Source: an uncultured Caulobacteraceae bacterium (GTDB lineage Bacteria; Pseudomonadota; Alphaproteobacteria; Caulobacterales; Caulobacteraceae). From it: a DNA stretch of 64,000 nucleotides. This document shows, one piece after another, positions 53,029-58,565 of this stretch. The DNA is taken from positions 44,552 through 108,551 of the forward strand of contig CAIQJF010000025.1 in NCBI GenBank assembly GCA_903872075.1, read 5' to 3'. The translations under genes were made by a program, and so were the position numbers. Positions within the stretch are counted from its first letter, which is position 1, and each line of letters opens with the position of its first letter. The notes beneath the pieces were generated by a model. The model saw only the letters and a program-made list of their open reading frames with translations, made no database searches and was not told where the DNA came from.

Positions 53029-53808
53029 ATGTCCCGCGCGGCGCGCCTCGAAGCAGTGCGGGCCCGCGTCGCCGTCCTGGAGGCTGGCGGCGCGCCGGCC
53101 CGGGGAGTCCTGTCCTTCGGCGATGTGCGGCTGGATGGGGCGTTTCCCGCCGGCGGCCTGCCCCTGGGCTGCTGGCACGCGGTAGGGGGCGAGGGGCTGG
53201 AGATCGAAACCGCCGCCGCGCCGGGCGCCTTCGCCGCCGCCCTGGCCGCGCCGCTGGCCGGGCGAGGGGCGGTGGTCTGGGTGATGCGCCGGGGCGATCT
53301 CTATGCGCCGGGCCTGGCTGGGCTGGGCTTTCCCGCCGACCGCCTGATCCAGGTTCAGGTCCGGGACGAGGCCCAAGCTCTTGCCGCCCTGGAAGACGCC
53401 CTGGGCGCCGCCGGCATCGCCGCCGCCATCGGCGAGGTGGGGAGCGTCGATCTGACGGCCGGCCGGCGGCTTCAACTGGCCTGCGAGCGGCGGGGCGCGA
53501 CGGGATTTGTCATTCATCGGCGGCCCTTCGGCGCCGGGACCGGAGCCGCGGCGGCTGCGCCGGGGGCGGCCGCCGCCACGCGCTGGATCGTGGGCGCCGC
53601 GCCCAGCGGTCCTGGGTTTCACGCCCCCGGGCTCGGCCCGCCGGGCCTGGGGCCGCCGCGCTGGCGGGTGGAACTGACCCGATGCCGGTCCGGCCGGCCG
53701 GGCGCCTGGATACTGGAGAAGACCGATGGAGCGCATCCTCTGCGCGTGGTCGCCGAACTGGGCGATCGCCAACTGGAAACGCCGCAACCCCTCCGCCGCG
53801 CTGGCTGA
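53029..53808 (+). CDS. imuA: ImuA (SulA/RecA-like mutasome protein)
   Basis: RGVLSFGDVRLDGAFPAGGLPLGCWHAV...; directly upstream of imuB-dnaE2; ATG at 53029. Confidence 0.88.
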   Translation: MSRAARLEAVRARVAVLEAGGAPARGVLSFGDVRLDGAFPAGGLPLGCWHAVGGEGLEIETAAAPGAFAAALAAPLAGRGAVVWVMRRGDLYAPGLAGLGFPADRLIQVQVRDEAQALAALEDALGAAGIAAAIGEVGSVDLTAGRRLQLACERRGATGFVIHRRPFGAGTGAAAAAPGAAAATRWIVGAAPSGPGFHAPGLGPPGLGPPRWRVELTRCRSGRPGAWILEKTDGAHPLRVVAELGDRQLETPQPLRRAG

Positions 53809-55255
53809 GGCCTTCGCCCTGGCGGAAACGTCCCGCAACGCCCGCCGGCTCTCCGCGGTGAACGCGGCCGCCGCCGCCCTGGGCCTGTTCGTGGGCCAGA
53901 AGGCCACGGACGCCACAGCCCTGGTTCCGGACCTGGTCCTGGCCGACGCCGAGCCCGAGGCCGACGCGGCGGCGCTGATCGCCCTGGCCGACTGGTGCGC
54001 CCGGTTCTCGCCCGCCGTGGCTCTGGATCCGCCCGACGGTCTCTTCCTGGATATCACCGGCCTCGCCCATCTGTGGGGCGGCGAGGCGGCCCTCGCGGCG
54101 GATCTGACCGCGCGTCTCGCCCGCAATAGCCTGCCTGTGAGGACCGTCGTCGCGCCGACTCCCGGCGCGGCCTGGGCCCTGGCCCGCTTCGGTCCCCATG
54201 GAACCATCCTGAATCCCGAGGACGCTGCGGCGCGCCTGTCTCCCCTGCCGGCCGCGGCCCTGCGCCTGGCGCCGGAGGATGCCGCCCAGATCGCCCGCCT
54301 GGGTCTGGCCACGGTCGGCGCCCTGGGCGCCCAGCCGCGCGATCAACTGGTCCGGCGGTTCGGCGCGGGTGTCGTGCTGCGGCTGGATCAGGCCCTGGGC
54401 CGGCGACGCGAGGCCCTGACCTTCCGCCGCCCTCCCACGCCCTGGTTTGCGCGCCTGGCCTTCGCCGAACCGATCAGCACGCCGGAGGATCTCGCCCGGG
54501 CGGCCCGGGACATCGCCGATCGCCTCTGTGCGCGGCTGGAGGCCGAGGGGCGGGGCGGCCGGCGTTTCGATCTGGCCTTTCACCGCCTGGACGGGGTGAT
54601 CCTGCGCCAGAGCGTGGGCCTCGCCCTGCCCGGGCGGGACGCCGTGGCGGTGGCCCGGCTGATGATCCCGCGGCTGGATACGCTCGATCCCGGGTTTGGT
54701 ATCGAGGCGGTGACCCTTGCGGCGGCTGGGGTCGAGGTCTTGTCCGCCCGACAGGTCCGCCTGGATGAAAGCCGCGATATCGCGCCGGAAGAGGGGATCG
54801 CGCCCCTGGTGGATCGTCTGGTCAACCGCCTGGGGGACGACGCTGTCTGGCGGGCCGAACCCCACGCCAGCCACGATCCGGAACGGGCGGTGCGACGGCG
54901 CCCGCCGCTGTCGCCGCCGTCCGTCGCGGCGCCCGGCGGCTGGGATCCGGAGCGGCCGCGGCCCCTGCGCCTGTTCCGCCGGCCCGAACCCATCGAGGCG
55001 GTGGCGCCGGTGCCCGACGATCCGCCGGTGTTCTTCCGCTGGCGCGGCGCGGGCCACCGCGTGCGCCGGGCCGAGGGGCCCGAGCGCCTGGCGGAGGAAT
55101 GGTGGCGCCGGTCCTTCGAGGAGGCCGGTCCCGGCCGGGTGCGCGACTATTACCGGGTGGAGGACGAGGCGGGCGGGCGCTTCTGGCTGTTCCGCGACGG
55201 GCTCTACGCCGCCGCCGATCCGCCGCGCTGGTGGCTGCACGGCCTGTTCGGTTGA
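53726..55255 (+). CDS. imuB: ImuB Y-family polymerase-like protein
   Basis: [22 protein letters not shown]...[19 protein letters not shown]...; operon context. Confidence 0.92.
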
Positions 55256-55271: not shown

Positions 55272-58200
55272 ATGACCTACGCCGAACTGCAGACCACCAC
55301 CAACTACAGCTTCCTGCGCGGGGCCTCGCATCCGGGAGAACTGGTGCTCACCGCCAGGGCCCTGGGCGTGGCCGCCGTGGGGGTCACCGACCGCAACAGC
55401 CTGGCCGGGGTGGTACGGGCCTGGTCCAAGGGGCGGGAACTGGGACAGCGGGTGCTCAGCGGCTGCCGGCTGGATTTCGCCGACGGGGCGCCCAGCCTGC
55501 TTTGCTATCCCACCGACCGGGAGGCCTGGGGACGCCTCACCCGCCTGCTCACCGTCGGCCAGCGGCGGGCGAAAAAGGGCGACTGCCATCTGATGGCGGC
55601 CGATCTTGCGGCCCATGCCGCGGGCCAGCTGTTTCTCGTCGTCGCGCCGTCGCGTCTGGATCCGGTCTTTGACGCCGACCTGACCCGGCTCGCGGGGGAA
55701 TATCGCGGGCGGATCTGGCTGGCGGCGGCCCGTCCCTATGGCGCGCGGGACATCCAGCGGCTGGCGGCCCTGGACGAGCTGGCGGCGCGCAGCGGCGCGC
55801 CGATGATCGCCGTCAACGACGTCCTCTACCATGGCCCCGAACGGCGGCCCCTTCAGGACATCCTCACCTGCATCCGCGAGGGCCGCACGATCGAGACGGC
55901 GGGCCTGAGCCTGGAGGCCAACGCCGAACGCCATCTGAAAACCCCGTCCGAGATGGCCCGCCTGTTCGCGCGCTGGCCGGCGGCCGTGGCCCGCACCGTC
56001 GAGGTGGCCGACCGGATCGGCTTCGACCTGTCCCAGCTCAAATACGAATACCCAGACGAGCCGGTTCCGCCCGGCAAGACCCCCATCGCCCATCTGACCG
56101 ACCTGGCCTGGCGCGGTGCGGCCTGGCGCTACCCCGGCGAGGTCCCCGAGAAGGTCCAGAGACTTCTGCGCGAGGAGCTGGGCCTGATCGAGGAGCTCGA
56201 CTACCCCAACTACTTCCTCACTGTTTACGACATCGTCGCCTGGGCGCGCTCCCAGGGCATCCTCTGCCAGGGTCGCGGCTCGGCGGCCAATTCGGTGGTT
56301 TGCTTCTGCCTGGGGATCACGGCGGTGGACCCCACCAAGCCCAAGCACGACATGCTCTTCGCCCGCTTCATCTCCCGCGAGCGCAACGAGCCGCCGGATA
56401 TCGACGTCGATTTCGAGCACGAGCGGCGCGAACTGGTGATGCAGTACATCTATGAGCGCTATGGCCGGGAGCGGGCGGCCATCTGCGCCACGGTGATCCA
56501 CTACCGGCCGCGCAGCGCCATCCGCGACGTCGGCAAGGCCCTGGGCCTGACCGAGGACGTCACCGCCGCCCTGGCCGGCACGGTCTGGGGCAGCTGGGGC
56601 GACGGACTGCCCGATGATCACATCCGCCAGGCGGGGCTGGACCCTGAAAGCCCCGAGATTCGCCGGGCCACGGCCCTGGCCGAAGAGCTGCTGACCTTTC
56701 CCCGCCATCTCTCTCAGCACGTGGGCGGCTTCGTCCTCACCCGCCGGCGGCTGGACGAGACCGTCCCCATCGGCAACGGGGCCATGAAGGACCGCACCTT
56801 CATCGAATGGGACAAGGACGACATCGATGATCTCGGCCTGATGAAGGTGGACGTCCTGGCGCTGGGCATGCTCACCGCCATCAAGCGGGCCATGGATGTG
56901 TTGGGCATCGCCGACATGGCCGACATCCCCGAGGAGGACCCGGCCGTCTACGCCATGCTGTCCCGCGCCGATTCCGTGGGCGTGTTCCAGGTGGAAAGCC
57001 GGGCGCAGATGTCCATGCTGCCGCGGCTGAAGCCGCGGGAATTCTATGACCTGGTGATCGAGGTCGCCATCGTCCGGCCGGGGCCGATCCAGGGCGACAT
57101 GGTCCACCCCTATCTGCGCCGCCGGGAGGGAACCGAGCCAGTTGAATTTCCCGCCCCCGCGCCGGAGTTCGGCCCGGCCGATGAACTGGAAGGCGTTCTG
57201 GGCAAGACCCTGGGCGTTCCCCTTTTCCAGGAACAGGCCATGCGCCTGGCCATCGAGGCGGCGAAGTTCACGCCCGAGGAGGCCAACGGCCTGCGCCGGT
57301 CCATGGCCACCTTTCGCAACTACGGTGATGTGGGAGTCTATGGGCGCAAGTTCGCCGAGGGCATGGTCAGCCGGGGCTACGACCCGGAGTTCGCCCAGCG
57401 CTGTTTCCGCCAGATCGAGGGCTTCGGCTCCTATGGCTTCCCCGAGAGCCACGCCATCAGCTTCGCCAAGCTGGTCTATGTCTCGGCCTGGCTGAAGCAC
57501 CATCGCCCGGACGTGTTCTGCGCGGCCATGCTCAACAGCCAGCCCATGGGGTTCTATCAGCCCGCCCAGCTGGTCCGCGACGCGCGCGAGCATGGCGTCG
57601 AGGTCCGCCCGCCTGACGTGATGCGCAGCGGCTGGGACTGCGCGCTGGAAGAGGATCGTGACGAACGCCCCCTCCACTACCTTCGGCGGTCCCCCTCCCC
57701 CGCGGGCGGGGGAGGAGAAAATACATCTCCTCCCCCGTGCAACGGGGGAGGGGGACCGCGCCAAGGGCGCGTGACGGAGGGGGTGCACCTCCGTCCCGTC
57801 CGCCTCGGTCTGAGGATGGTTTCGGGGCTGCGCCGGGAAGAGGCCGACCGGCTGATCGCCGCCCGCCGGGACGGCGCGCGGAGCCTCACCGGTCTCGCCG
57901 CCCAGGGCGCCCTGTCGCGCCAGACCCTGGAGCGGCTGGCCGAGGCCGACGCCCTGCGATCCCTGGGAATGGATCGCAGGGCCGGACTCTGGGCGGTCAA
58001 GGGTCTGGCGCCCGAGGCCCGGGCGGAGACCGAAGCCCCGCTTCTGGCCCTGATGGGCCCGCCCGCCGAGGGTCCGGCCAGCCTGCCGGTCATGCCCCTG
58101 CCGGCCCATGTGGCCGAGGACTACCGCACCACCAGCCTCTCCCTGAAGGCCCACCCCTGCGTCTTCTTCCGGCCCTTGCTGAACGACCTTGGGGCCGTGA

Positions 58201-58565
58201 CGGCGGCGCGTCTGAAGACGATGAGGGATGGCGCCCGCCTCTGTGTGGGCGGTCTGGTCCTCATCCGTCAGCGGCCGGGCACGGCCAAGGGCGTGGTGTT
58301 CGTGACCCTGGAGGACGAGACCGGGGCCGCCAACGCCGTGGTCTGGAAGGACGTCTTCACCGCCAATCGCCGCACCGTCATGGCCTCGCGCTTCCTGGTG
58401 GTGCATGGCCGCCTGCAGAAGGCTGGCGAGGTGATCCATGTGGTGGCCGAGCGGTTCACCGATCTCACCGCGCGCCTGAGCGACTTGCGGGCCGAGGGGC
58501 CGGCGGCGCTGGAACCGCCACGGGCCTCACCGGCCCGGCTGGGCCGCAGCCGGGACTTTCACTGA
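55272..58565 (+). CDS. dnaE2: Error-prone DNA polymerase DnaE2
   Basis: [77 protein letters not shown]. Confidence 0.96.
57669..57784 (+). repeat. Palindromic repeat element inserted in frame within dnaE2
   Basis: CCCCCTCC...GGTCCCCCTCCCCC / GGGGGAGGGGGACC...GGAGGGGG arms around inner hairpin GGGGGAGGAGA-AAATACA-TCTCCTCCCCC. Confidence 0.8.

Follow-up and report, generated by a model that had tools for sequence, protein, structure and literature searches.

Rickettsia palindromic elements (RPE), as summarised from Ogata et al. 2000 in PMC2229807, are palindromes of 105-146 bp that lie between genes and are also fused in frame in conserved proteins, and a guanylate kinase bearing an RPE was reported in that review to be still active. 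ERIC/RU-1, RU-2 and RU-3 are MITE-like small mobile palindromes likewise fused in frame to genes (PMC2229807, PMC2759123), MITEs being recognised by terminal inverted repeats, target-site duplication and a parental transposon. REPs have a unit of 20-40 bp with GTAG or CGTC at one end, the GTAG type occurring with RAYT (Y1_Tnp). Di Nocera and colleagues (2013, PMC3733652) describe GTAG/CGTC-tagged REPs inside replication and repair genes, DnaE2 included; repair genes are often the sole REP-tagged genes of a species, a mutator effect is proposed and, recB apart, genes of the same category carry repeats at differing sites. CIR, in the summary of Chen and Shapiro 2003 given in PMC2229807, are intergenic inverted repeats of ~110 bp in Caulobacter and other alphaproteobacteria; they have a conserved GANTC, each of their six frames contains stops, and according to that summary none was found in genes.

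The window analysed here, a stretch of 64,000 nucleotides from an uncultured Caulobacteraceae bacterium (genome G000), carries a palindromic repeat element of 122 bp (57665..57786, + strand) inside dnaE2. The repeat is dispersed and multi-copy, and it lies in a conserved gene whose frame is open and some of whose orthologues are empty. Like RPE, it is a palindrome found in frame in a coding sequence and also between genes, and the mechanism is alike; unlike RPE, it belongs to another host group and has one coding copy among 36, in a loop where different repeats are found in other lineages. The relatives of this repeat that were found are in the same Caulobacteraceae genus, and the analogy drawn in the original prediction holds for how the element works. 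ERIC/RU-1, RU-2 and RU-3 resemble it by description, as small palindromes in frame in genes. In contrast to them, no target-site duplication was definable here at the dnaE2 insertion against the sister species, and a search for Y1_Tnp (PF01797), the one transposase family covered, gave no match in the draft genome (100 contigs, ~93% complete) while control genomes were positive, so that neither a parent transposon nor a RAYT as mobiliser of the repeat was found there.

REPs also lie inside replication and repair genes, DnaE2 among them, but the unit here is longer (~110-120 bp, four hairpins, ends CGCCCCCTCC..GGAGGGGGCG), one site recurs, and no consistent terminal GTAG/CGTC tag is present: in a family alignment of 29 near-full copies, GTAG occurs in 3 and CGTC, in a non-terminal position, in 20. 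Unit length, tag and the absence of RAYT in the draft genome rule out membership of the REPs. CIR are inverted repeats of similar length in Caulobacter relatives, but here 3 of the 29 copies contain GANTC, the dnaE2 copy not among them, and open frames make up 71%; CIR membership was rejected because the defining GANTC site is not conserved. In-frame palindromic repeats, some of them in DnaE2, have thus already been published, and the new and more interesting part is a recurrent hotspot at a single site. Convergent insertion at a single site was not found in the literature searched, which included few subscription journals and excluded the supplementary list of PMC3733652, and a 2026 survey of bacterial polymerases (PMC12926913) does not mention insertions.

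The element in dnaE2 and its genomic copies

The host gene, dnaE2 (imuC; 55272..58565, + strand), encodes an error-prone DNA polymerase of 1097 aa with the Pfam domains DNA_pol3_alpha, finger, HHH_6, PHP and OB, and scored 1395.8 bits against the NCBIfam profile PRK05672 (cut-off 939). Its reading frame stays open across the insert, whose peptide agrees with the one originally predicted, and the insert-bearing protein retains D376, D378 and D527, the aspartates that are catalytic in Pol III alpha. Directly upstream is an imuB-type gene (53726..55255, + strand; Y-family, IMS domains, DUF6504-like tail), preceded by an imuA-like gene (53029..53808, + strand) assigned by gene order and a weak NF033429 match (39.4 bits, E 5.9e-10, below the curated cut-off of 150). 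The gene belongs to an imuA-imuB-dnaE2 cassette, whose imuA member is this weak match. DnaE2 is in general not essential.

The original prediction described about 116 bp at 57669-57784 with mirrored arms and a perfect inner hairpin, and all of these are read in the sequence: CCCCCTCC (57668) is mirrored by GGAGGGGG (57776), the arm GGTCCCCCTCCCCC starting at 57688 has its exact reverse complement GGGGGAGGGGGACC starting at 57744, and GGGGGAGGAGA (57708) and TCTCCTCCCCC (57726) form the perfect inner hairpin. The location was right, and the true unit, whose bounds were set by the other genomic copies, is slightly wider (57665-57786). Its outer arms ACGCCCCCTCC and GGAGGGGGTGC are paired, its inner hairpins are of the form CCTCCCCC..GGGGGAGG and its centre is GGGGGAGGAGA/TCTCCTCCCCC. 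The element is GC-rich, with two outer hairpins of variable stem and two inner ones. In the aligned copies the 5' part consists of (G/A)CGCCCCCTCC, a variable-stem hairpin with a TTCG-type loop, CCTCCCCC-loop-GGGGGAGG and a short centre, and the 3' part of a second CCTCCCCC-loop-GGGGGAGG, another variable hairpin and GGAGGGGGCG; changes in the hairpin-1 stem are compensated among copies (ACCCC-GGGGT, ACCGCC-GGCGGT, ACCACC-GGTGGT). The predicted minimum free energy was -100 kcal/mol over 126 nt containing the element, and the 147-bp linker that houses it (57651..57797, + strand; 49 codons, delimited by comparison with insert-free orthologues) had a fold z of -8.9 against dinucleotide shuffles. 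No Rfam family matched the element at the gathering threshold, by which a known structured RNA was ruled out. Without a T-run, there is no intrinsic terminator on the coding strand at the element; one terminator-like match lies on the minus strand.

The insert contributes ~45 residues to DnaE2. In the AlphaFold2 model (mean pLDDT 82.7, pTM 0.79) the protein adopts the Pol III alpha fold, with 7pu7, 4iqj and 2hpi as best PDB matches. Residues 796-836 (57657..57779, + strand) are predicted to be disordered, with pLDDT <50 at residues 797-836, and are flanked by two-residue strands at 791-792 and 843-844. The insertion point lies within the Pfam HHH_6 match (HhH region) and, in the alignment with Pol III alpha chain 2hpi, comes just past residue 881. 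In this model the insert is most likely a solvent-exposed loop extension.

Searching the genome (4.36 Mb) with the element gave 60 matches, which fell into 36 distinct places after the two strands of the palindrome were merged; being counted by sequence search in a draft, the copies number about 36. This copy number puts the palindrome far above chance and rules out a single-copy sequence unrelated to any repeat family. By a codon-usage test of the flanks, the dnaE2 copy is the only one of the 36 with a continuous coding frame across it, as expected for the normally intergenic small repeat that had been proposed; several other copies sit in long open frames, but judged by codon usage they do not lie within one coding frame. 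The flanks of the intergenic copies vary, and 12 of 16 genomes from the same Caulobacteraceae genus contain the family. At G000:C55:11836-12078, two full copies stand in tandem with ~20 bp between them.

Among intergenic copies, 119 of 168 frames are open (71%) and lengths are spread evenly modulo 3; therefore roughly a quarter (~24%) of random insertions of this repeat would leave the frame open. The original statement that the repeat entered the gene without breaking the frame was correct, and it is less remarkable than it sounded: frame-keeping by this one copy is invalid as proof of selection and carries weight only within the tally of 22 inserts given below.

Filled and empty linkers across Alphaproteobacteria

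In most members of the genus the linker is short: that of G002, G013, G010, G011 and others measures 3-10 aa and lacks the insert, by which an insert ancestral to all DnaE2 is ruled out. In the DnaE2 tree the insert-bearing G000 gene pairs with the empty gene of G002 (support 92), and the empty G013 branches next. Because the filled gene nests among empty ones, a recent gain in G000 would be the simplest reading. The observation behind the original prediction is thus confirmed, and its interpretation as an insertion into the gene is supported by these sequence comparisons. At the same site, a related full element is present in G015, whereas G006 and G012 have only a short hairpin. In another member of the genus, locus L045 (G005:C444, ~1395-1580), imuB ends directly before a strong palindrome (-130.6 kcal/mol), beyond which dnaE2 is present from the insertion site onwards only, about 784 codons being absent; this arrangement reflects a deletion between two copies of the repeat or else a collapse in the assembly.

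We then surveyed 387 alphaproteobacterial genomes drawn evenly, 196 of which had a DnaE2 match. Because a long insert lowers the match score, the 47 lowest-scoring of the 196 were re-searched and those without the locus were fetched. An insert of 150-285 bp at this linker was present in 7 of the 196 DnaE2-bearing genomes sampled (L201-L205, L214, L225), and one more, L230, had such an insert ~17 residues downstream. A search of named genomes, which is biased toward similar proteins, added 8 more at the linker (L062, L064, L098, L101, L104, L108, L117, L140), and its L100 insert has the same sequence as that of L203. The genomes compared include some MAGs. In total 22 long inserts were measured, 18 at this site (L100 and L203 having the same sequence) and 4 at a second site. 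All 22 are multiples of three and stop-free, and 21 are strongly palindromic (fold z -3.4 to -11.1). Inserts of at least 135 bp had fold z of -2.7 to -11.1, whereas linkers of ~100 bp or less were near 0, some hairpin remnants excepted.

When 88 DnaE2 proteins were mapped on an insert-free reference, palindromic long inserts fell at residues 885-890 in nine lineages; the others lay at 904 in the Bradyrhizobium group, at 193 in Brevundimonas and at 920 in one MAG. Nine of the 12 palindromic insertion events thus lie within 6 residues (~1e-16 under uniform placement), a figure that shows clustering and not its cause, because the uniform model ignores that loops are unequal targets. A DnaE2 tree built without the linker requires the insert state to change 15 times, at least 11 of them on well-supported branches. 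When the inserts at this site were compared with one another, about ten sequence groups emerged; since several of these have the generic CCCTCTCCCC/GGGGAGAGGG motif in common, their being unrelated is a matter of degree. Six inserts (Caulobacter, Roseomonas, Erythrobacter, Novosphingobium, G081, G365) were searched against their own genomes and all six were multi-copy, the Novosphingobium and G081 families being smaller and their matches mostly partial. Judged from sequence, the loop is a recurrent insertion hotspot, which goes beyond what the original prediction saw.

The linker also changes length without palindromic inserts and is the most length-variable internal point of DnaE2 in the set examined; non-palindromic length variation occurs at reference 145-150 and at the C-terminus as well. 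The second site, ~17 residues downstream (reference 904), holds the palindromic inserts of Bradyrhizobium-type DnaE2 in L111, L127, L137 and L230, and L121 (Brevundimonas sp. AAP58) has a palindromic insert of 102 residues (z -8.4) near reference 193 in the N-terminal part of DnaE2. Short linkers resembling repeat remnants were seen in L228, L032 and L033 (peptides HSREGGNP, PPDKGEGG and PPHKGEGG), and for this reason past insertions are at least as many as the long inserts counted. In Rhizobiales loci such as L073, L077, L097 and L105, the same loop holds a conserved non-palindromic insert of ~20 residues (FDPxxIxxRHxxMRxVIxTxHA), which suggests an ancient insertion that has since been fixed. 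In DnaE1, four partial matches had linkers of up to ~30 aa and no long palindromic insert, and the other full-length matches had no long gap, in a comparison that was not a systematic survey.

Origin of the recurrent inserts

We consider it very probable, as a joint reading, that a dispersed repeat occupies a permissive DnaE2 loop, that about ten groups colonised this loop independently, and that near-neutral insertion and purifying selection account for the pattern. Abundant palindromic repeats would insert widely, at random and near-neutrally, and purifying selection would remove genic insertions unless frame and fold survive. With 71% of frames open and lengths even modulo 3, roughly one in four insertions would persist in a loop that tolerates them; the filter would be relaxed in DnaE2, non-essential but useful, and the exposed, length-variable turn (the loop joining the strands of a short beta-hairpin within the HhH region) would be the main place where insertions are tolerated. 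The insert would be retained as a translated, disordered loop of ~45 residues, and its translation in vivo is presumed from the open frames. The inserts are probably near-neutral, and the hotspot is probably caused by a permissive loop rather than by a sequence target; the inserts may share a preference for GC-rich targets.

An adaptive role would have the inserts change how accurately DnaE2 copies DNA, how it contacts the clamp or ImuB, or how much of it is present, and so tune stress-induced mutagenesis; this is the mutator effect proposed in PMC3733652, which argues that repair genes are hit too often for chance. Recurrence within one DNA-damage polymerase, a site in the HhH region and DnaE2 as the sole gene hit in this genome among 36 copies (by codon usage) agree with such a role. 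The inserts, however, have no peptide sequence or length in common, most DnaE2-bearing species lack them, loop length varies even without them, and a permissive loop accounts for the site without any benefit; we regard adaptation as possible but unlikely. REP-mobilising transposases can show target preferences, and the conserved Leu-Glu codons (CTGGAG/CTGGAA) before the linker might accordingly offer repeat-mobilising enzymes a favoured DNA motif. Yet insertion ends and flanks differ between lineages and insertion points lie several codons apart, which argues against one fixed target sequence; about ten sequence groups are involved, intergenic copies have varied flanks, this draft genome has no Y1_Tnp, and other DnaE2 sites are occasionally hit too. 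Targeting around CTGGAG is in our view very unlikely.

We hold it to be highly improbable that the insert goes untranslated as such, the RNA hairpin being skipped, cleaved or terminating and DnaE2 being inactivated or made in two parts. A hairpin of -100 kcal/mol within the mRNA could block or attenuate expression, and the L045 contig shows imuB, a palindrome and only the C-terminal part of dnaE2, but frame-keeping, stop-free sequence in 22 of 22 long inserts is what translation would predict and what skipping or decay would not, the catalytic residues are intact, and the coding strand has no terminator T-run. As to a misjoining of the repeat into dnaE2, the draft is in 100 contigs and the element is repetitive, whereas both flanks belong to one gene in one frame inside a contig, the same situation exists in the isolates L062 (Caulobacter), L064 (Reyranella), L098 (Roseomonas) and L101 (Azospirillum), and the L062 and L098 inserts are repeats of their own genomes; an assembly artefact is extremely improbable.

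Coding palindromes have so far been treated as scattered oddities. One loop entered independently by about ten repeat groups, the frame being kept each time, amounts to a natural replicated experiment in which insertion pressure is separated from selection. It is an improbable proposal that one structurally fixed DnaE2 loop is a class-wide convergent hotspot whose inserts modulate stress-induced mutagenesis, with repeat mobility feeding back on mutation rate. The polymerases with and without insert form ready-made pairs, by which any effect on error-prone repair becomes directly testable, and the DnaE2 loop, which tolerates 40-95 additional residues, would be of use for tagging.
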